Positions 21,348 through 30,907 of a DNA stretch of 31,654 nt are shown one piece after another. The stretch is from Bondarzewia mesenterica. Its lineage: Eukaryota > Basidiomycota > Agaricomycetes > Russulales > Bondarzewiaceae. The notes under the pieces are model-generated. The model saw nothing but the letters and a program-made list of their open reading frames with translations, ran no database searches and was not told the origin of the DNA. The DNA is taken from positions 1-31,654 of the forward strand of contig SGPL01000390.1 in NCBI GenBank assembly GCA_004802705.1. Reading direction: 5' to 3'. The translations under genes were made by a program, and so were the position numbers. Each line of letters begins with the position of its first letter. Positions within the stretch are counted from its first letter, which is position 1.

Positions 21348-22411
21348 ATGAGACAAGAGTATGAGCTCTTACCCACAGATGAGAGCGCAGGCGCTCTTGA
21401 TGACGCAATAGGTAATCAACAATCCTTCACTGAATGGTCTATCATGTTTAATTTCTTTACTTCTACGTGTAGGGTCGGACTCCTCTTCTAGGGTGCAACA
21501 TAACCGATTGTTCTTTTCAAGCGTTCTGCCAGCGCTATTCGCGCTCCTCTGCACCCTCGCCAACTTCGCCCTCTGGTATGCTGGGCGCACAGGAATAGGC
21601 CATCCCCATGCAAGTGCACTTCTAACACGCCTCTCCTCCTCCCTCGAACGCCCCTCGACCTATATTGGTCTCGACAAGCTCACTTACGATCGTATCTCTG
21701 AATCTCACCGCCAATTTGCGAACTTTCCGTTCTTGCTCACCCAGATCAGCAAGGTGGAGCCGGAGCTTGTGTGGGCTGACGATAGCAAGCAGAAACTTAC
21801 AAGCATCGGATCCATCTCTCCTGATTCGCGGCGTTTTATGCTGACGCCTGAGGTGAATAGATATCACTCCTTTGGACTGCGGTCGCAGTAATTGGCTAAA
21901 CTACTATGGTGAATGGCATTCAGATATCGTCCGTCGCTCAATTCCGAGTCGTGGATTACGGTTACGAGAACTGCTCGCTGAATTTTGCTTTGCAATCTTC
22001 AGCCAAGCAACTCCCCCTCGCAGGCGCGTCTGTAGACATCTGGTCCCTCAGCATGTCGTCCTCCCGTCTTGACGCTACGCGTCTATCCTGGACTTCACGG
22101 CCGTCAAGAAGGGAGAAGCTCGGAATGGTGATGCTCGCTCCAAATGCTTCTGTTGAATTGGAGAGGACTTGGCCTTGCAAATGGGGGGAGTTTCAAACAT
22201 TCGAGTTTGCGTGTGCGATGGACGAGAAAGAGGGTGAGCGGCGGGGGTGCAACGTCGATTTCTGGCAGGATCCAAAGGTTCCGAGTCTTGGTCAGTATTG
22301 CTAAGTATTCCCATCGATTGTCCGTGTTATGTGGGCTGATTCTTTTCCTTTTTTTTCACAATTGGTGCAGGGGTGACTATGACGCAGCGCTCGTCGCTCG
22401 CTGGGGCGTAA
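21348..22411 (+). CDS. Single-pass membrane protein of a conserved fungal family, four exons
   Basis: Exons 21348-21411, 21473-21852, 21924-22290 and 22371-22411 keep phase through three GT-AG introns and give 283 residues. The N-terminal 30 residues are hydrophilic (MRQEYELLPTDESAGALDD) and are followed by one membrane helix (VLPALFALLCTLANFALWYA), so the C-terminal domain probably faces the lumen or outside. The rest has the pattern RPSTYIGLDKL, SPDSRRFMLTPE, AQFRVVDYGYENCSLNFAL, WSLSM, CKWGEFQTFEFACA and CNVDFWQDPKVPSLG. This layout is one I associate with an uncharacterised family found throughout Agaricomycetes. Two or three Cys in the luminal part could form disulphides. No enzymatic motif is seen and no function is assigned. 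The gene looks intact. Confidence 0.8.
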
Positions 22412-23032
22412 TTTAAAATTCTCTCGGCGAGATATATCCCGTGCGTCCCGGTTCACCCTTTCTTTGTGTTTGTATACCAAAATTGTGAAAAAATCGTAAG
22501 CTGATGTCGAGCTGATGCTATAAATTTAAAGCCAGCCTGCGCTTCAGCTAGATGCGATTGCACAAGTCTTAAGGTTCAGCATAACGCAATAGATAGGCAT
22601 CTGGGTTCCTAATAGGTAACACAACAAGATCTATCGAACCACTTATGTAGCCCAAAAAAATTCCGGTTTACTGCCAACATCTACGCACAAGAGGCTCGCC
22701 TTTTTCGTCAAGATCTTCTCCGTCAGGCGACATGATGCATGATGCATGATGGGTTGTACACGCACAGGATTGGAATCGACAGCAGAACATGAAGATCAGA
22801 TTACGGGCACTCTAACGCCGCGAGGCTGCGCCGAACGTATCATCGGCATTTTTCTTTCCATGGCCTTCATCAAAAGGCGAAGGAGGACATTCGTCCTGGG
22901 CGGAGATGACAGGACGTTACAGTCAGCGTCAATTGCTCTCTCTGGGAGACAATGTCTGGATGCATCCTGGCGGGATTGACCTCCATCGACGTCGTGCGGA
23001 GAGGATGGAGAGCAGACCCAGTTCATAAAAAT
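22412..23032. other. Convergent intergenic region
   Basis: The 3' ends of the membrane-protein gene (+) and UstYa-like gene 1 (-) face each other here. The stretch after 22411 is AT-rich. Three exact copies of CATGATG lie at 22731-22751. No gene is seen. Confidence 0.4.
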
Positions 23033-23722
23033 TTAGTTGTCCCCTCTCCAATTCTGCTCTCTGAACTTCATCCACTCCCAATAATTACGCTCTACCAGTT
23101 CATAGACTTCCCTCCAATCCCTACAGACCCTTTCCCTTCCTCCACCTGTGCCAATCACTCCCTGTTTTGCACTCTCCAGCCAGCCGTATTCCTCAAGCAT
23201 CGTGTCGGCTTCACACAATAAATGCTGCCTCACGTAGTTCAAGCAATGGTGCAGATGTTCCTCGTTCCCCCCTTCATCCGCAGATAACCAGTCTTCGGCA
23301 ATTGCCTTGGCGAAGAGATACACGCAGTGCGACGCATGTGACATCGATATTGCGAATATGCGTTTGTTTGGACCGAGACGGATATAACCGAGCTGGTGTG
23401 GCAGGGAGGCGAACCATGAGGGAAGAGAGGATGAGGTCGGGGTGTAACGGGTGGAGGATTCGAATGTGTAGGATATTGATGGGAGGCTTGAGAGAGAAGA
23501 GCGGAGGGGTACAGTAGAGGGGAAGGAGTCGCCCAGGTACGTATATCCTGTTGCCGTGACCGGTAAGCGGACTGGAAGAAGAAATGAGGGAGGGGACTGA
23601 CTATGAATGATTTCGCGGCTGGTGTAGTTGAGGACCGTAAGAGATAGCAGGACGAGGTTCGCGATGCTCAGCAAGCCGAGTGCGAGCTTGCCCATATTTT
23701 GAGGAGGGGTGGGTATACGCAT
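23033..23722 (-). CDS. UstYa-family (DUF3328) protein 1
   Basis: UstYa-type proteins are small membrane-anchored oxidative enzymes that modify fungal ribosomal peptides or other metabolites in the secretory path. Here the start is the ATG at 23722 (MRIPTPPQN) or 23695 (MGKLALGLLS). One N-terminal membrane helix follows (LLSIANLVLLSLTVL). Then comes YTYLGDSFP, the family start of the soluble domain; a RLGPNKR segment; the first HxxHC motif as HASHC; the second as HLHHC in HLHHCLNYVRQHLLC; and CRDWREVYEL. A 54-nt segment (23601-23548) has good donor and acceptor signals and keeps frame, so it is probably spliced out, giving about 200 residues. Both metal-binding motifs are intact. It lies 1.1 kb downstream of, and on the same strand as, the membrane-protein gene at 24.1-25.5 kb. 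Confidence 0.85.
   Translation of the reverse strand: MRIPTPPQNMGKLALGLLSIANLVLLSLTVLNYTSREIIHSQSPPSFLLPVRLPVTATGYTYLGDSFPSTVPLRSSLSSLPSISYTFESSTRYTPTSSSLPSWFASLPHQLGYIRLGPNKRIFAISMSHASHCVYLFAKAIAEDWLSADEGGNEEHLHHCLNYVRQHLLCEADTMLEEYGWLESAKQGVIGTGGGRERVCRDWREVYELVERNYWEWMKFREQNWRGDN
23548..23601 (-). other. Probable in-frame intron in UstYa-like gene 1
   Basis: It begins GTCAGT and ends CAACAG, is 54 nt long (a multiple of three) and has no stop. Removing it joins the stem region directly to YTYLGD. UstYa-like gene 2 has an intron at the same place in the protein, which supports splicing. Confidence 0.6.
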
Positions 23723-24115
23723 GCCGCCGACAATAGATATACAGCGATGGAGGCCAAGTTTATATAAGTACCAAGGCCAGTTCTCTCGCGGATCAGATCG
23801 TGGTATCAGCGCTTTGGTCCTAGTACTTCGTGATTGTGTTTCAGGACTCGGAATATATGATTCCACAGATTCTGATAAGCCATACATCCTAGCTCGAGGC
23901 GACTTTTTTTTCTCAGCCAGGAAAATAGTCATTTCTCGTAAGTACATACATGTATACCATGCATGCATGGCATCTGAAAAGTGATGCGTTCTTCAACGTT
24001 CAGGGCAAGTTCAGGAATATACATACCCTCTCTACACAATCGAGTACAAACTTTATAACGGCGAGAACCTCACTCCATATACTTGATGACCGTATATGCC
24101 AAAAAAATCAGCTGC
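23723..24115. other. Intergenic region upstream of UstYa-like gene 1
   Basis: It should carry the promoter of UstYa-like gene 1 and the 3' end of the membrane-protein gene. It is AT-rich with short A/T runs (near 24100) and has no supportable ORF. Confidence 0.4.
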
Positions 24116-25481
24116 TCACACCTCCTCCCTCCAGCTTCCACTCTCCAGGCTCATGCCAAGTGAATCGCTCAGCCCTGAGATATTTGTACCCTGCTTCTTA
24201 CCTTCCGTTCTTCTGTCACGGTCTCTTTCCTGGGGCGGTAAACGTAGCTGAGTCACGCCAGTCTCCTTGTCTGCGTCGTCCCTGGTTGAATGCTGAACTC
24301 CGTCTCGGGACTGGAATTGTATGCTGGTCATGGGTGCTGTACCGGTTTTGGAGTCCCACGCGCGGCGGGTCGCCACGCGGAATATGATCAGCATCGGAGC
24401 TATGATCTACGGCCAACATCAACACGAGCATGACACCTGCATCTGCGTGCATGAAACTGGGAGGAGATGAAAAGAAGACGCACTTGAACCTGCGACAAGA
24501 CCGGCAAAAAAATATTAGAAATATGGCTCTTCGCTCCGTATGGCCCAATGAATAGTAATGACGACACAGCGTAAAGCATTGAGCTTTCAACGATCATAGC
24601 TGCGATACTGGCGTAGGGTATGGAATATGCGTGGTCCGGGCCAAGTGCATGACGAAGGGCGCGGCGATAGAGGAGGAGGCGGGCGGCGATGAGGAGGGTG
24701 AGGAGAACATTAAGGGATGCGGAAAGGGAGAAGTAGGGAATTCCGAAATTGACACTTGTCTCGGACCAGAGGTTCGCGGAGGGGCGAGATATTTGAAAAA
24801 GAAATATCATGCCCATCGCTGTACGAGGATAGCGAGAGGGAGGTGAGTCAATGAAGGGCGAGCCATATATGAGGGGATTAGGACTTACAGATTGAGCCGA
24901 GGTACATTAGGATAGGGAGCGCGATGATGTATAATTTGAGGTGGAAAATGACGAGACAGCGGTATAGCTTTTTCAGAGATTAGTATCTAGACTAGGTGCA
25001 CGAATTCTTCGTGCATCCGGAGTTGGCCGAACTCACCAAGAACCCATCCGCAAGCCAACCAGCGACAATGGAACACGCGTTGGGAACGACCGTGATCGCA
25101 GAAGAATACTTCGAAAGGGAATATGCAGTGGGACCCCCAGGATACTCACGGTTGTCGATGAACATGAGCTGGAGCGATTTCATGTCCATACCAATGAAGG
25201 CCGTGCCGAGAGCGAAGATGATGAAGGTATAGACAGGCAAGATGTAATCCAGATGCGAACGGTTGGATTTCAGGTTTTGATTTTGATAGAGAGCATACAT
25301 CGTCTGGAGGAAGATGACGAAAGACGCGCCTAGATGAGGATGTCAGAATTGTCAGACACAACATAACGAAGATGAGAAGAGGCGCACCGAAGGCTATCTG
25401 AGACATGCAGTCGCCAAGCAATGTTGCGCGCTCGAGCCAGAGGATGTCAGGGGGTAGGTGGGGGGCATAGGGATTCGACAT
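24116..25481 (-). CDS. Multi-pass (about seven-helix) membrane protein of an Agaricomycete-expanded family
   Basis: The start ATG at 25481 gives MSNPYAPHLPPDILWLERAT. Exon 1 is 25481-25388, exon 2 is 25330-25037, exon 3 is 24967-24899, and further exons run to the stop at 24116-24118. Family landmarks in order: helix SFVIFLQTMYALY; helix DYILPVYTFIIFALGTAF; FIDNREYPGGPTAY; SIVAGWLADGFL joined to LYRCLVIFHLKLY; helix ALPILMYLGSI; NFGIPYFSLSASLNVLLTLL with RLLLYRR; SIAAMIVESSMLYAVSSLLF; IFLPVLSQVQ; and IAPMLIIFRVATRRAW. A hydrophilic tail of about 80 residues, rich in Arg, Asp and Gln, follows. The layout is common in mushrooms and often found in large copy number; the function is unknown, with receptor or transport roles possible. 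Next to UstYa-type genes it might move or sense the peptide product, but that is inference. Confidence 0.85.
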
Positions 25482-25913
25482 GGGAGGTCTGTCTGTATGG
25501 TGCAGTGCGAGGAGAGGTGAGCAGTACTCCGGGACAACTCCTTGAGTACATTCGATAACCTGCAGGCGCTCGAGCTCATCAACGTCAACGTCCTTCCATT
25601 GCATCTGATCAGTTTCTGATGCCTCATGCGTACGATTTGAGCGGGTTCTCTGATCGATGATCCTTGATCCTGGCGGCGCTCGGAAGGATCACATCAAGTC
25701 GACATCAAGGAAGCGATCATCTTCTGAGATGGATCCGTGAGAGCGGGAGTCGCTTGGAGAACATGTGTCGAAAGACGCCTGCGTTATGCAAAACGCCCAA
25801 GACCCCCCTCCAGACTGATCTATCACGGTTGTTCGTTAGTGAGTGCATTTCAACGACGAGCGTGCGGCCACACATATCGGCTGACGGCTGACCAAACATC
25901 TTGAAGACACGCA
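25482..25913. promoter_or_regulatory. Divergent intergenic region (membrane protein and hydrolase genes)
   Basis: It lies between two divergent start codons, so both promoters should be here. No coding content beyond shadow ORFs is seen. Confidence 0.4.
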
Positions 25914-26917
25914 ATGCCATTTGCCCAAGTCAGAGAAGGCGAGATCCCATTCACCGTCGACACGGAGACGTTCTCCACCCACTACAAACTTTTTCGGCGA
26001 CCTCTCCACCTCCTCCCGTCCCCCGCTCATAGTTCTCAACGGAGGCCCGGGTGTCTCATACGACTACCTCCTCCCCCTCTCTGAGCTCGCTTATCTCGAA
26101 CCTCCAACGCCCGTCATTTTCTATGACCAAATCGGCACTGCTCGCTCCACGCACCTGCCATCCAAACCTTCCTCATTTTGGTCCATTGACCTTTTTCGTC
26201 TCCGAGCTCGAGAATCTCCTGTCTCACTTCTCCATCGCTGACTCGTTTGACCTCCTGGGGCACTCCTGGGGCAGCATCTTGGCCGCCGAATTCATAATCC
26301 GACGTCAACCTAAAGGTTTAAAGCACGTCGTGCTCGCCAACGCACTCGCGTCTGCAAAGCTGAGGAACGAGGCCAGAGTGAAGTTGAGGAAGGAACTGCC
26401 CGAGGATGTGCAGGAGGTCATAAGGCGCCATGAGGAAGCGGGCACGACAAAGGAGGCGGAGTATAAGCAGGCGATGCTGAGGTTCTACGAAAGGCATTTA
26501 TGTCGGCTGCAGCCCTTTCCCGAGGAAGTGCTGTACTCGTTCAAGCAGTCCGAGTTGGACGATACGGTACTGAAGAACATGTACGCCAGTATTTCCTTGC
26601 TTCCCTCCTCCCCAGTCTCCCCACATCCAGTGGATTTGTGCAGAATAAAAGGCCCTGATTTTGGACACGTTGTTTGCAGGCAGAAAAATGGCCTCGAAGA
26701 CAAGTGGGACATCACCGACAAGATCCACCTCATCCGGGTTCCGACACTTCTCCTCAATGGCGAGCACGATTTCGAGACGGACGAGGTTTGTGCGCCATTC
26801 TTCTGGGGGATCGACAAAATCAAGTGGGTCAAGTTCGCAAAGTCGAGCCATATGCCGCACTGGGAGGAGCGCGAGAGATATATCGAAGTCGTTGGGTCAT
26901 TCCTGAGGGATGTATAA
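25914..26917 (+). CDS. Proline-iminopeptidase-type alpha/beta-hydrolase, with two apparent 1-nt shifts
   Basis: Peptidase family S33 members cleave N-terminal residues (often Pro) from peptides or hydrolyse amino-acid amides. The start ATG at 25914 gives MPFAQVREGEIPF. The oxyanion-region motif NGGPG and the FYDQIGTARS stretch follow, then the nucleophile elbow GHSWGS, the acid region NGEHDFETDE and the catalytic His in SSHMPHWEERERY. These are all parts of the triad in the usual order. An intron lies at about 26581-26643. Two runs of five T (25990-25994 and 26192-26196) each shift the frame by one, and one T fewer in each gives the family reading (KLFGDL; DLFVSELENLL). A consensus error or a decayed gene are both possible; the otherwise intact catalytic residues favour error. 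It sits between the UstYa-like genes and 445 bp from the repeat-precursor gene. Confidence 0.8.
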
Positions 26918-27361
26918 ATACAATGTGTTGAGGCCCATTGGAAGTCAACCCTGTTCTGTACTTAATCTCCGTGCGAACTCGATTTTCCTCAGACCGCGGT
27001 CGTTCTGATGTATATGGGTTCTATTTGTCGAATCAAGGTATCTGCATCATGATCACGTAGTTGCTGTCCCAGCTGTTAGAGACATCGTCCCGACTTTATT
27101 CATAACGTATGGATTTGCAGCGACGGACAAGGGCATGCCAGGAGGCGGCAAGAGAATACATATTCACATTTGCACGCATGCACATATGAATCAGACTCCT
27201 GAATAATCAGACTTTTCGCAGCAATCTGATTCATCCTCGATATACAAAGACACGTATCCGCGATCTTCCCCAAGGCGCCAAACATATCGAGTGGGGAAGA
27301 TTTCGTAGCGTAAGGAAGAACGCGGAGACAGACTCAGTCCACAACTTGTTCCCTCCCCTCG
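26918..27361. other. Convergent intergenic region
   Basis: The 3' ends of the hydrolase gene (+) and the repeat-precursor gene (-) face each other. The part adjoining 27361 still matches the precursor's internal repeat for about 30 bases past its stop codon. Confidence 0.5.
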
Positions 27362-27391
27362 TCAGAAGTCCATGAGCTTCTTTAAATCCAT
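27362..27391 (-). repeat. Precursor repeat copy 2 (C-terminal)
   Basis: This encodes the D-M-DLKKLMDF unit directly before the stop codon. At the DNA level it matches copy 1 in an extended block that continues past the stop. Confidence 0.75.
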
Positions 27392-27627
27392 ATCCTCATC
27401 ACGCCGATGAATCGTAGGCTTCGAAGTGACCAAAACTGCGTCCTTCCCCCGTCGAAAGTCCATAAGTTTCTTCAAATCAGCATCCTCTTATAATCCATAA
27501 GCAACATAAGCACCTGCTTAGGGAAAAATGTAAAGAGACGGTTGCGCTCACCGGAGCGAGGGGTGGCTGCGGCGTGCGAGAGCACGACGAACATCAAGGC
27601 AGAGAGCAGGATGGCAAAGACACGCAT
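27362..27627 (-). CDS. Small secreted repeat-peptide precursor (KEP/dikaritin-like RiPP precursor candidate)
   Basis: The ATG at 27627 begins a signal peptide: MRV, then a hydrophobic core of about 14 residues, ending SHAAA with likely cleavage near residue 21. Exon 1 is 27627-27552 (76 nt), the intron 27551-27487 (65 nt, GTGAGC...TATAAG) and exon 2 27486-27362, giving 66 residues. The mature part holds two copies of a ten-residue unit, D-x-DLKKLMDF, at residues 27-36 and 57-66. Copy 1 is followed by Arg-Arg (37-38), and a linker leads to Arg-Arg (53-54) before copy 2, so the sites fit Kex2-type proteases. Four of the codon differences between the copies are synonymous and only one residue differs, which suggests selection on the peptide. 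UstYa-family genes lie 1.2 kb and 3.6 kb away. I infer a ribosomal-peptide precursor. An alternative is a plain Kex2-processed secreted peptide without modification. The core has no Tyr, unlike ustiloxin. Confidence 0.7.
27454..27483 (-). repeat. Precursor repeat copy 1
   Basis: This encodes the D-A-DLKKLMDF unit followed by Arg-Arg-Gly. It differs from copy 2 mostly at third codon positions. Confidence 0.75.
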
Positions 27628-28786
27628 GATGGGCGGCAAGGGGTGTTGAACGTACTGCAAGCAGAGTGGATTTCGCGGATTCGAGGTGCTCAGGCGGCGT
27701 TAAAGTTGAGCTCCTATCGTATCATGGCAATGGTCTTATATCCAACTGCACTCTGCACTCTATACAGCCAGGTCAGTGATGATAGTCAGCGAGACCAACC
27801 ATGTTCGCTGTACTTCTGAGTCAGCTGTGAGATTGACAGCGGTTCGTGATGATCAGATAGGATCAGATGGCGCAGGTTTTCGAAACTGAGGTTAGTACTC
27901 ACAGCATCGTGTTTGGAAGATTGGATCCTCATAACGTAAACAAACTTTTCCCGAGCTGACGCTGACATTTTTCCTGGAATGAGCTGGACATAAATAGACA
28001 TCTCCCATCTCTTCATGCCGCGTGCAGTCTATCAGCGAAGGTGATAATCCGCAGTCCAAGTATCAGCTTCGCTGATGCATGCTGCTGATACTTGCATTTG
28101 ATTGATTAGATACTTAAACTGAGGCATTTAGGATGACCACAACACACAGAAGGTTATCATATCCACGCGTGGAGCACTGGAATAGACTCGGTTGGCTTAT
28201 TCTCCTGGAATCATCGGAGTTTCAGCTTAAGGCCTCCGTCTTCTATATCAAGATAAGTCGGGTGAATTGAACAGTCCAAAGCGAGCGTACCTCGGATTAC
28301 TCAGATCCATCCTGCTTCACCAACTTGAAAGGTAGCAGCATTCTCTGATGAACAATGGAAGATCCATTTGAACAAGTGTTTGTATTCTGCGCTGCAGAAC
28401 TTGTTTCCAATTACTTAGCGCCCACCGTCTTTCTATTCCATCTATATCAGATTCGTGATAGGGCGGTGCAAAATGAGGGCGGTGCGCTATGGAAGCAGGT
28501 TGGAAGGCGATGAGACAAATAATTCTACGGCACAGTTCACTTCCGATTCAGAACGAAGGTGACCATGCGATCAGCGCACAGACTTTGATTGATCAAGAGA
28601 CATTACTATCGATGTAACATTGGTGATTACATTTTGTCGTGCATGCAGCATACTTGAAGGGAGGTGAAGTCCATGTCCTCCGTGTCCCTTTTGTCGCGTA
28701 CGCGTGTGCGTGACAAGTCCGAGTCGAAGCCACCTCGCTTGCGTCCTCATCTCGCCTGCAGACTCAGTGTAAAGTGTTGCCACAAG
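27628..28786. promoter_or_regulatory. Divergent region between the precursor gene and UstYa-like gene 2
   Basis: About 1.16 kb lies between two divergent start codons, so it may drive both the putative precursor and the putative modifying enzyme. No supportable gene is seen in it. A perfect 11-bp inverted repeat lies at 28057-28094, with extra partial copies of its TATCAGC core nearby (28030-28036 and around 28071). Confidence 0.45.
28057..28094. promoter_or_regulatory. Perfect 11-bp inverted repeat, possible regulator site
   Basis: CAAGTATCAGC (28057-28067) and GCTGATACTTG (28084-28094) are separated by 16 bp. It lies in the divergent region about 430 bp from the precursor start and 690 bp from UstYa-like gene 2. 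It could be a dimeric regulator site or a hairpin. Function is inferred only from position. Confidence 0.4.
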
Positions 28787-29438
28787 ATGGATCTGCGCTG
28801 GCATGCCGCTCTTGCGCTTACATCGACTGTGTTGCTGCTCATCTTGATCTGGTCTCATGCCAATTCTGCAATCGTCCCATCGCAGACTCGCGACTATAGT
28901 GCGTCATCCTCCCCAATTTTCAGCATGGAGAGAATACTCAACGAGATTGACAACTTCTTTTGCAGCCTATATCGGCGATGACTACCCCCTCACATGGCCA
29001 CTCCCAGAAATGGATAACGTCATCATGTACCCAGAAGACACGCACCGTTATGCCCTTCGTACACCAGAGGGCACAGCTGAATGGCGCGCCCTTCTCCCTT
29101 TCGATGATACCCATAGCGGTTTCCCAAACGGGACTATACATTTAGGCCCGCATGACCGCCCCTTCACGGTCGCGATGTTCCACCAGCTACAATGCCTCGA
29201 TATCATCCGGAGTGCGCTCGCCTTCCCGACCCATTCCAAAGACTCATGTGGCAAGAACCTCAGAGATCATTGCCTCAATTATCTGAGGCAGGCAGTCCTT
29301 TGCCACGCTCACACGGACCTCGAATCTATACGCTCTGACCAAGGCCCCAAGATCGCGGACCTGACAAGATCAATGTATATATGTCGTGATTGGCGGGTGC
29401 TATATGGTGGAAAGGAGAGGGGCGAGACATCGAGGTGA
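28787..29438 (+). CDS. UstYa-family (DUF3328) protein 2, two exons
   Basis: Exon 1 (28787-28898) codes 37 residues: MDLRWHAALAL, then a membrane helix (STVLLLILIW). The intron is 28899-28965 (GTGCGT...TTGCAG). Exon 2 (28966-29438) starts TYIGDDYP, the standard family opening. The protein has 194 residues, normal for a one-helix UstYa-type enzyme. The first metal motif is HQLQC (residues 110-114) in place of HQLHC, and the second is LRDHC (136-140) in place of HxxHC, within HCLNYLRQAVLC. So one His of each motif is changed. CRDWRVLYGG closes the domain. Such proteins catalyse oxidative cyclisation in dikaritin peptides and are often encoded in pairs, with one full-motif and one variant copy. 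UstYa-like gene 1 in this window has both motifs intact. The variant residues might mean a helper or inactive role, which is inference. Confidence 0.87.
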
Positions 29439-29801: not shown

Positions 29802-30907
29802 TTCAGTCAGCGGCGTTCCCACTGACTGAAAGCTAATGAGTAATGTTCGGCGGGCTAGGCCCTCGCGAGACATTTGCCATTGGTCGATAAGCGACCATAT
29901 GGCACCGAATCTATCTTTAGCGGACGTGGACCCCACGCTGGCTGCGGATTAGGTTAGGTGGCGGCGTCGAAGACGCCGAGCGCGAAGCGCGAAGAGAGAA
30001 CGGTGAGTGGAATGGAACAATACTGCAGGAGGATGTAATTCCTCCACACTACCTAAGTAGATATCAGTATTTCGCATGATGCTCATCAGGTTCCAAGCCA
30101 TGCAGTATTTATATGGTGCCCCTTGAGGGCAGGCTCTACAATCGCCTTTGGCGATTTTCAAGAGAGCCGACAGGCTCAGTAAGCCGCCGAGCGGCTGACT
30201 GATGCTCAAGAGTGATGACTGAGGGGAATTCCCACATCAGTCATCCTTTATCATCCAATCAGAGGATGGCTAAAGCAGCTCATCTCTTTTCGGTCGTGGT
30301 TTTTGCCACGCCTATTCATCAGCTGAGTAATCTAGATTACAATACACACTTAGTAAGACGGAAGTGAGTGGGTCAGAGTTATTCTTAGAACGTCTTCTTA
30401 GAAAGAAGGGCGGGAACCTCGGGGATTAGTCAAGGTCCGCGGCTATCGGATTTAATTTACTTGTGCCGATGACGATGCCGTCGAGCGGCCGTCAGGCCGC
30501 TGTGCAGCATGCTCGGCAGGTTCCTTCGGTCGGATCGGTTCGCCCGTCGTCAGACGGTCCGTTATGATTCCTCCGGGCCTTTCGGCCCAGTCGGCGACGG
30601 ACACCNGCCCGAGGGCCGNGCCGNCAGGCCCGGGCNCTAANAAATGCCCAGGCCCATGCCTNTNAGGTTAATTCCTTGTAAAGCCCCGGCTTAATATCCG
30701 GTCCATGCCCTTGCGGGTTTAGGTACCNAATTACCGGAACATAATCGTAGTAAGACGGCCTTTCGGGTTACTNAGTTCCTTCCTAGGGTTCCCGCNTNGC
30801 AGAGGCCACGGCGCAGCCGTGGGCGTCTCTTCAGCAAAGCAANGGTTCACAAAGGTAAAAATCCTTCCCCAAACGAGGGGAAGCCCACGTGACGGGACAT
30901 TATGTCC
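29802..30907. repeat. Dense array of perfect short hairpins, probable repetitive element
   Basis: At least 15 perfect inverted repeats with 4-9-bp arms and short loops occur in 1.1 kb. Examples with arms and coordinates: TTCAGTCAG/CTGACTGAA 29802-29830; TGGTCG/CGACCA 29881-29897; CGTGG/CCACG 29925-29937; GGCGTC/GACGCC 29963-29977; TGCCC/GGGCA 30117-30131; AATCGCC/GGCGATT 30140-30156; GAGCC/GGCTC 30164-30177; AGCCGC/GCGGCT 30182-30196; GATGACTGA/TCAGTCATC 30214-30245; CGTGG/CCACG 30295-30310; AGCGGCC/GGCCGCT 30484-30501; CCGTC/GACGG 30544-30557; GGGCC/GGCCC 30575-30588; CCACGGC/GCCGTGG 30806-30822; CTTCCCC/GGGGAAG 30864-30883; GGACA/TGTCC 30895-30907. Several N bases lie inside 30606-30843. 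This is probably part of a transposable element, such as a long terminal repeat, though no boundary was found. Confidence 0.7.

Follow-up and report, generated by a model that had tools for sequence, protein, structure and literature searches.

A probable UstYa-type peptide cluster with a tyrosine-free, two-core precursor in Bondarzewia mesenterica

The closest described systems are the dikaritins ustiloxin, phomopsin and asperipin-2a of the Ascomycota, and the sources of identified dikaritins named in the consulted part of PMC12048977 are ascomycete classes only. For Basidiomycota, Umemura 2020 surveyed Kex2-processed repeat precursors (KEPs), defined by at least three tandem repeats of at least eight residues each, and found DUF3328 genes near 103 of 1680 of them; Bondarzewia is listed there under two KEP types (PMC7329392). 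In Pleurotus, 16 UstYa-like genes have been reported, six of which are expressed during development (PMC8893723). A characterized product of a basidiomycete UstYa protein was not found in the open-licence literature searched. Here, a locus of Bondarzewia mesenterica (Russulales) is described in which a small gene for a putative secreted precursor lies between two genes of the UstYa/DUF3328 family. The window, i.e. the whole stretch of 31,654 nucleotides that was analyzed, is an entire contig (SGPL01000390.1, referred to as C324) of a 33.1-Mb genome in 844 contigs, and no description of this locus was found in the literature searched. The locus probably represents a UstYa-type cluster for a ribosomally synthesized and post-translationally modified peptide (RiPP), which resembles the dikaritin clusters and possesses a Tyr-free precursor with two cores.

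The precursor gene is located on the minus strand with its ATG at 27627 and its stop codon at 27364-27362, and splice enumeration gave a product of 66 amino acids. Exon 1 (27552..27627) encodes a signal peptide, as judged by hydropathy, and ends with ...TPRS. It is followed by a phase-1 intron of 65 nt (27487..27551) with the donor GTGAGC at 27551 and an AG acceptor ending at 27487. Exon 2 (27362..27486) comprises both D-x-DLKKLMDF units and reads EDADLKKLMDF-RR-spacer-RR-DEDMDLKKLMDF-stop. Among the listed splice models, the one with the 65-nt intron is the model that pairs the GTGAGC donor with both units; a reading without splicing was rejected due to the loss of the frame. A scan for repeats near dibasic sites yielded four overlapping matches in the window, all of them inside the precursor, and none in 30 Markov-resampled windows, wherefore a chance origin of the units was rejected. 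A preliminary description of this DNA had proposed a secreted precursor of 66 residues with two such units and Arg-Arg sites between two UstYa genes, and splice enumeration and repeat scan bear this out. The statement that the core lacks Tyr also proved correct and extends to the whole precursor; the cores contain neither Trp nor Cys.

At the DNA level, four bases distinguish the two DLKKLMDF units; each is a silent change in a third codon position, so that the eight residues are identical. These exclusively silent differences point to selection on the peptide since the duplication of the unit. A degenerate DNA pattern of the unit occurred genome-wide only at the two places in the precursor, and no further copy was detected. 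The MDF at the C-terminus of the core (window 27443-27490) recalls the end of vertebrate gastrin and cholecystokinin, a likeness which we presume to be due to chance.

About 5.8 billion proteins were searched for relatives of the precursor, with those of similar length that share exact words being considered. The single candidate was EW146_g10335 of B. mesenterica, which also consists of 66 amino acids and shows 94% identity. The equal length of this gene model is consistent with the 65-nt intron. All four differences fall into the 14-residue spacer between the Arg-Arg sites, so that neither the signal peptide nor the two cores are affected. Under random placement of the four differences, this would be expected with p = 0.0014 over 66 residues and with p = 0.0099 over the 41 residues after exon 1; both values rest on two sequences, of which EW146_g10335 is itself a gene prediction.

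Both neighboring genes were assigned to PF11807 with scores above the cut-off, which agrees with the family named for them in the preliminary description. UstYa A (23033..23695, minus strand) possesses an N-terminal membrane helix and two intact HxxHC motifs (HASHC / HLHHC), and a probable 54-nt intron (23601-23548) results in 202 amino acids. UstYa B (28787..29438, plus strand) starts at 28787 and comprises 194 amino acids if the 67-nt intron at 28899-28965 is removed. It is oriented divergently to the precursor gene at a distance of 1.16 kb. It also has an N-terminal membrane helix, but its motifs are degenerate (HQLQC / LRDHC). UstYa genes are scarce in this genome: a PF11807 profile search detected 11 exon matches on six of the 844 contigs. 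A broken partial copy of UstYa B occurs on contig C275 (L020:8415-9168, about 22.4-23.2 kb; 90% identical over 759 bases), and no other genes of the cassette were found in the stretches of C275 that were examined. No solved structure related to the UstYa profile was detected, the best hit being a ribosomal protein with an E-value of 0.88, and a structure prediction for UstYa A from four sequences (mean pLDDT 42) was not used.

The pairing of an intact and a degenerate UstYa protein recurs in the gene sets on contigs C223 and C668. In all three sets, UstYa A has kept both HxxHC motifs and its partner lacks one histidine of each motif (HQLQC/LRDHC in C324, HQLQC/LTVHC in C223 and HQLRC/KAQHC in C668). 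Since the same two histidines are missing in all three partners, simple decay of UstYa B was rejected as an explanation. CctR, a characterized DUF3328 enzyme, forms a homodimer in which the motif binds two copper ions in each monomer, and replacement of the conserved His and Cys residues by alanine abolished all activity (PMC12435403). UstYa A exhibits the features of these copper-dependent enzymes, namely HxxHC(x)nHxxHC and the N-terminal membrane helix; UstYa B, in contrast, shows the helix only and is short of two of the four histidines. Because CctR is homodimeric and inactive without an intact motif, the B-type proteins may by analogy serve as partners of UstYa A rather than as independent oxidases.

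An alignment of 11 UstYa sequences was compiled from four sequences of the protein search, including UstYa A of the window, and seven genome stretches; the matches on C169 and C275 and the third gene on C751 were left out. In the resulting tree, the A set is separated from the B set with a support of 98/95. Contig C751 contains a degenerate copy (HQLQC/YTAHC) and its intact close paralog (HQLHC/HTEHC). The intact C751_3 falls into the B set, and thus the loss of the histidines does not define a clade, which speaks against a neat division into A and B types.

The paralogous set on C223 is arranged in the order hydrolase, small secreted candidate, But2-like gene, A-type UstYa, B-type UstYa, hydrolase and membrane protein. 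Across the aligned pieces, identities to the window proteins are 55% for the hydrolase (149 residues), 68% for the membrane protein (113 residues), 41% for UstYa B (138 residues) and 33% for UstYa A (177 residues). The gene order differs from that in the window and the linkage is kept; its survival through rearrangement argues for a joint function of the genes of both sets. C668 carries a partial set with the But2-like gene, both UstYa types and the membrane protein, and no hydrolase match was obtained on this contig.

The small secreted candidate of C223 (L018, minus strand, ATG at C223:105876) possesses a signal-peptide exon that ends with ...ARS and a phase-1 donor, thus resembling the ...PRS and phase-1 donor of the window precursor. 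This exon-1 design (...RS followed by a phase-1 donor) was found at only one place besides the precursor in 229,483 unique bases, comprising the window and the loci L011-L032. If a CAG acceptor is used (101-nt intron), exon 2 reads DEDDAVILLGGI-RR-GIDLA. In this splice model, a single acidic core of 12 residues precedes RR-G, as in SEDADLKKLMDF-RR-G of the window, although the core itself is different. The candidate and the window precursor are likely homologous. Scans for dibasic-separated repeats beside the UstYa loci of C223, C668 and C169 yielded no matches. On C223, three tandem units of 228-256 bases, which are about 68-81% alike in parts, overlap open frames near the set (L019:5869-6484, about 114.9-115.5 kb). 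On C668, the UstYa set is flanked by two small secreted peptides that contain Cys and resemble each other in their signal peptides (L014:4829, plus strand, and L015:5277, minus strand). They were set aside as precursors, one of them being present as a 90% identical copy at C446:89075-89251, a contig on which no UstYa match was found.

Three further genes accompany the UstYa genes of the window. The counts of such genes given below, for the genome as well as for UstYa loci, are lower bounds. A proline-iminopeptidase-type alpha/beta hydrolase is encoded at 25914..26917 on the plus strand. It resembles this family, as had been noticed before: an open piece scored 128.9 bits against TIGR01250, below the curated cut-off of 167.65. 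In the assembled sequence, two breaks interrupt its reading frame. The breaks may be caused by sequencing error or by gene decay. At least three of the four genes of this family in the genome are located at UstYa loci, two of these on C223. One of the C223 hydrolases is unbroken across the matched part and the other has a stop inside the match; the relatives of the C223 copy among PDB structures are proline iminopeptidases. The closest relative of the window hydrolase lies near the end of contig C228 (L022:2123-2788, about 73% at the DNA level over 980 bases), is unbroken in its matched part, and no UstYa match was found on this contig.

The multi-pass membrane protein (24116..25481, minus strand) is encoded by several exons with approximate splice sites. 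Five hydrophobic segments were detected across its exon pieces, in agreement with the earlier assignment, and no Pfam family was found at an E-value of 0.01. Paralogs are present on C223, C668, C575 and C350, so that at least three of five genes of this family are situated at UstYa loci. The third gene, But2-like (21348..22413, plus strand, limits and splice sites approximate), is located left of UstYa A and shifts the left limit of the locus outwards to about 21.35 kb. It possesses one N-terminal hydrophobic helix and matched PF09792 with an E-value of 1.8e-4 and 22.4 bits, below the cut-off of 24.2. Its C-terminal part gave seven matches in the genome at E-values up to 0.1, of which at least four lie beside UstYa genes (C324, C668, C223 and, with an E-value of 0.005, C751). 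No Rfam family reached its gathering score within the window. Isolated N letters are scattered at 30600-30850, adjoining the locus, and similarly in L011, which suggests local assembly trouble.

Compared to the dikaritins, the window shares a signal peptide, Kex2-type dibasic sites, more than one core and two UstYa/DUF3328 genes nearby. Of the five kinds of genes that PMC12048977 lists after Ding et al. 2015, a precursor with leader and repeated core and multiple DUF3328 proteins are present; as regards the transporter or peptidase, a proline-iminopeptidase-type hydrolase occurs, the frame of which is broken in the assembly. The two HXXHC motifs that the same source gives for DUF3328 as the class-defining enzyme occur in UstYa A and not in UstYa B. 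Unlike in dikaritin precursors, the cores number only two and lie far apart on either side of a long spacer, and neither Tyr nor the ustiloxin-type YXIX core, a tetrapeptide with Tyr and Ile, occurs. Tyrosinase (PF00264) matched twice in the genome, on C1 and C566, and not in the window, and a scan of eight stretches from the reported locus detected no methyltransferase. The But2-like and multi-pass genes do not belong to the five kinds as quoted in PMC12048977. Like the basidiomycete KEPs with DUF3328 neighbors, the window has secreted units between dibasic sites and DUF3328 genes nearby, but two units instead of the at least three of the survey. The kind of locus, a basidiomycete repeat precursor beside DUF3328 genes, is thus known in silico; new are the two-core, Tyr-free precursor, the recurring pairing of intact and degenerate UstYa proteins, and the But2-like and multi-pass accessory genes.

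A locus with more conventional features is present in the same genome. On C751 (L013:4788-5420, about 9.8-10.4 kb), a Kex2 repeat precursor with 11 units of KR-VPH[RK]YGISADEELE, which are YXIX-like, was detected, and within about 13.5 kb lie three UstYa matches, a But2-like gene and two genes with methyltransferase domains (CARME and PCMT-like). The UstYa genes are situated at 19.2-23.3 kb. By its sequence, this is a Tyr-bearing dikaritin-like locus. A ustiloxin-like tyrosinase was suspected there by eye and could not be confirmed. Among the UstYa loci scanned besides the window, dibasic-separated repeats occurred only in this repeat gene.

The genes, the motifs, the repeated gene set and the conservation of the cores in the database relative are direct observations. 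The paralogous set on C223 and the unchanged cores strengthen the dikaritin-like reading that had been put forward in the preliminary description, and the hydrolase, not intact as assembled and broken relative to its paralogs on C223 and C228, weakens it. Several further observations weigh against this reading. On C751, a distance of about 8.7 kb separates the Tyr-bearing repeat precursor from the closest UstYa gene, and duplication as one block may account for part of the repeated linkage. Neither C668 nor C169 yielded a confident precursor. The candidate of C223 has one core, which is invisible to repeat scans, it has rival splice models, e.g. with a 43-nt intron, a TAG acceptor and an Arg/Cys-rich tail, and a query of the protein database with its peptide found no relative. 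The protein search with UstYa A gave four matches, namely the window's own protein, two unnamed proteins and one from Phellopilus nigrolimitatus. None was named B. mesenterica, although that species possesses the precursor; the contig of EW146_g10335, however, comprises only 3445 bases.

It is possible, though unlikely, that the gene encodes an ordinary Kex2-cut secreted protein which releases linear, unmodified peptides, the UstYa neighborhood being fortuitous or belonging to another pathway, such as one in which the UstYa enzymes modify some other peptide. Repeat-precursor peptides of Coprinopsis, Lentinula and Pleurotus were detected in linear or minimally modified form (PMC9769878), and by subtraction 1577 of the 1680 basidiomycete repeat precursors lack a DUF3328 gene within their 15 nearest genes (PMC7329392); the Tyr-free core fits this explanation as well. 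However, the confinement of UstYa matches to six contigs and the presence, in the C223 set, of a small secreted candidate that shares the exon-1 design argue against it.

A decaying cluster, in which the precursor survives and the pathway is non-functional in this strain, appears rather improbable. The two breaks in the hydrolase frame and the broken UstYa B copy on C275 would be expected in this case, but the frames of UstYa A, UstYa B and the precursor are open under the models used and the cores are unchanged in EW146_g10335. Furthermore, C223 and C228 each carry a hydrolase whose frame is unbroken over the matched part, and the breaks in the window may reflect sequencing error. A peptide-signaling cassette, with the secreted peptide as ligand matured by UstYa and the multi-pass protein as its receptor, is quite doubtful: the association of this membrane family with UstYa loci, its five called hydrophobic segments (seven helices by eye) and the different cores of the window and C223 sets are in line with it, but the membrane protein shows no Pfam family or receptor signature and such families are common in mushrooms.

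If the window is a UstYa-type RiPP cluster, the precursor would enter the endoplasmic reticulum via its signal peptide, for which hydropathy is the evidence. The membrane-anchored UstYa A, a putative copper oxidase with both HxxHC motifs, would act on the core, probably in a complex with UstYa B, the partner lacking one histidine per motif. Cleavage by Kex2 after each Arg-Arg and trimming of the arginines by Kex1 would then release two nearly identical peptides of 12 residues, SEDADLKKLMDF and DEDMDLKKLMDF, or shorter forms; the N-terminus of SEDADLKKLMDF is uncertain because no dibasic site lies upstream. One match to the kexin P-domain was found in the genome, on C589. The hydrolase, the But2-like and the multi-pass protein might have accessory roles in trimming, recognition, export or sensing. 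The action of the enzymes on the window precursor, all processing steps and the product are what we infer from this arrangement.

Given that Tyr, Trp and Cys are all absent from the cores, the enzymes would either oxidize an unactivated C-H bond or form a cross-link in which Lys, Leu, Met, Phe or Asp takes part. The earlier suggestion of a cross-link via residues other than Tyr is compatible with the absence of Tyr, but a cross-link need not follow, because DUF3328 enzymes also hydroxylate and halogenate (PMC12435403). The claim that the product class would be new went too far, since in silico work has already revealed basidiomycete repeat precursors with DUF3328 neighbors, and repeats devoid of Tyr are common: fungi-wide, Tyr occurs in 65.6% of the repeats from precursors beside DUF3328 genes, leaving about a third without it (PMC7329392).

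In a far-reaching and very improbable extension, duplicated cassettes with a conserved leader, varied cores and A/B UstYa pairs, in which B has lost half of its histidines, would modify Tyr-free peptides by a non-dikaritin chemistry, and the multi-pass protein would sense the product, representing a mushroom signaling system outside the mating-type locus.

If the assignment as a UstYa-type cluster is true, a basidiomycete UstYa pathway would become accessible to bench testing. The copper oxidases, whose best-known products among the dikaritins carry cross-links at Tyr, would here have a substrate that lacks this residue, and the precursor, by its size, would be one that escapes a survey demanding three repeats. 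The pairs of intact and degenerate UstYa proteins would make the function of heterodimers in this family directly testable.

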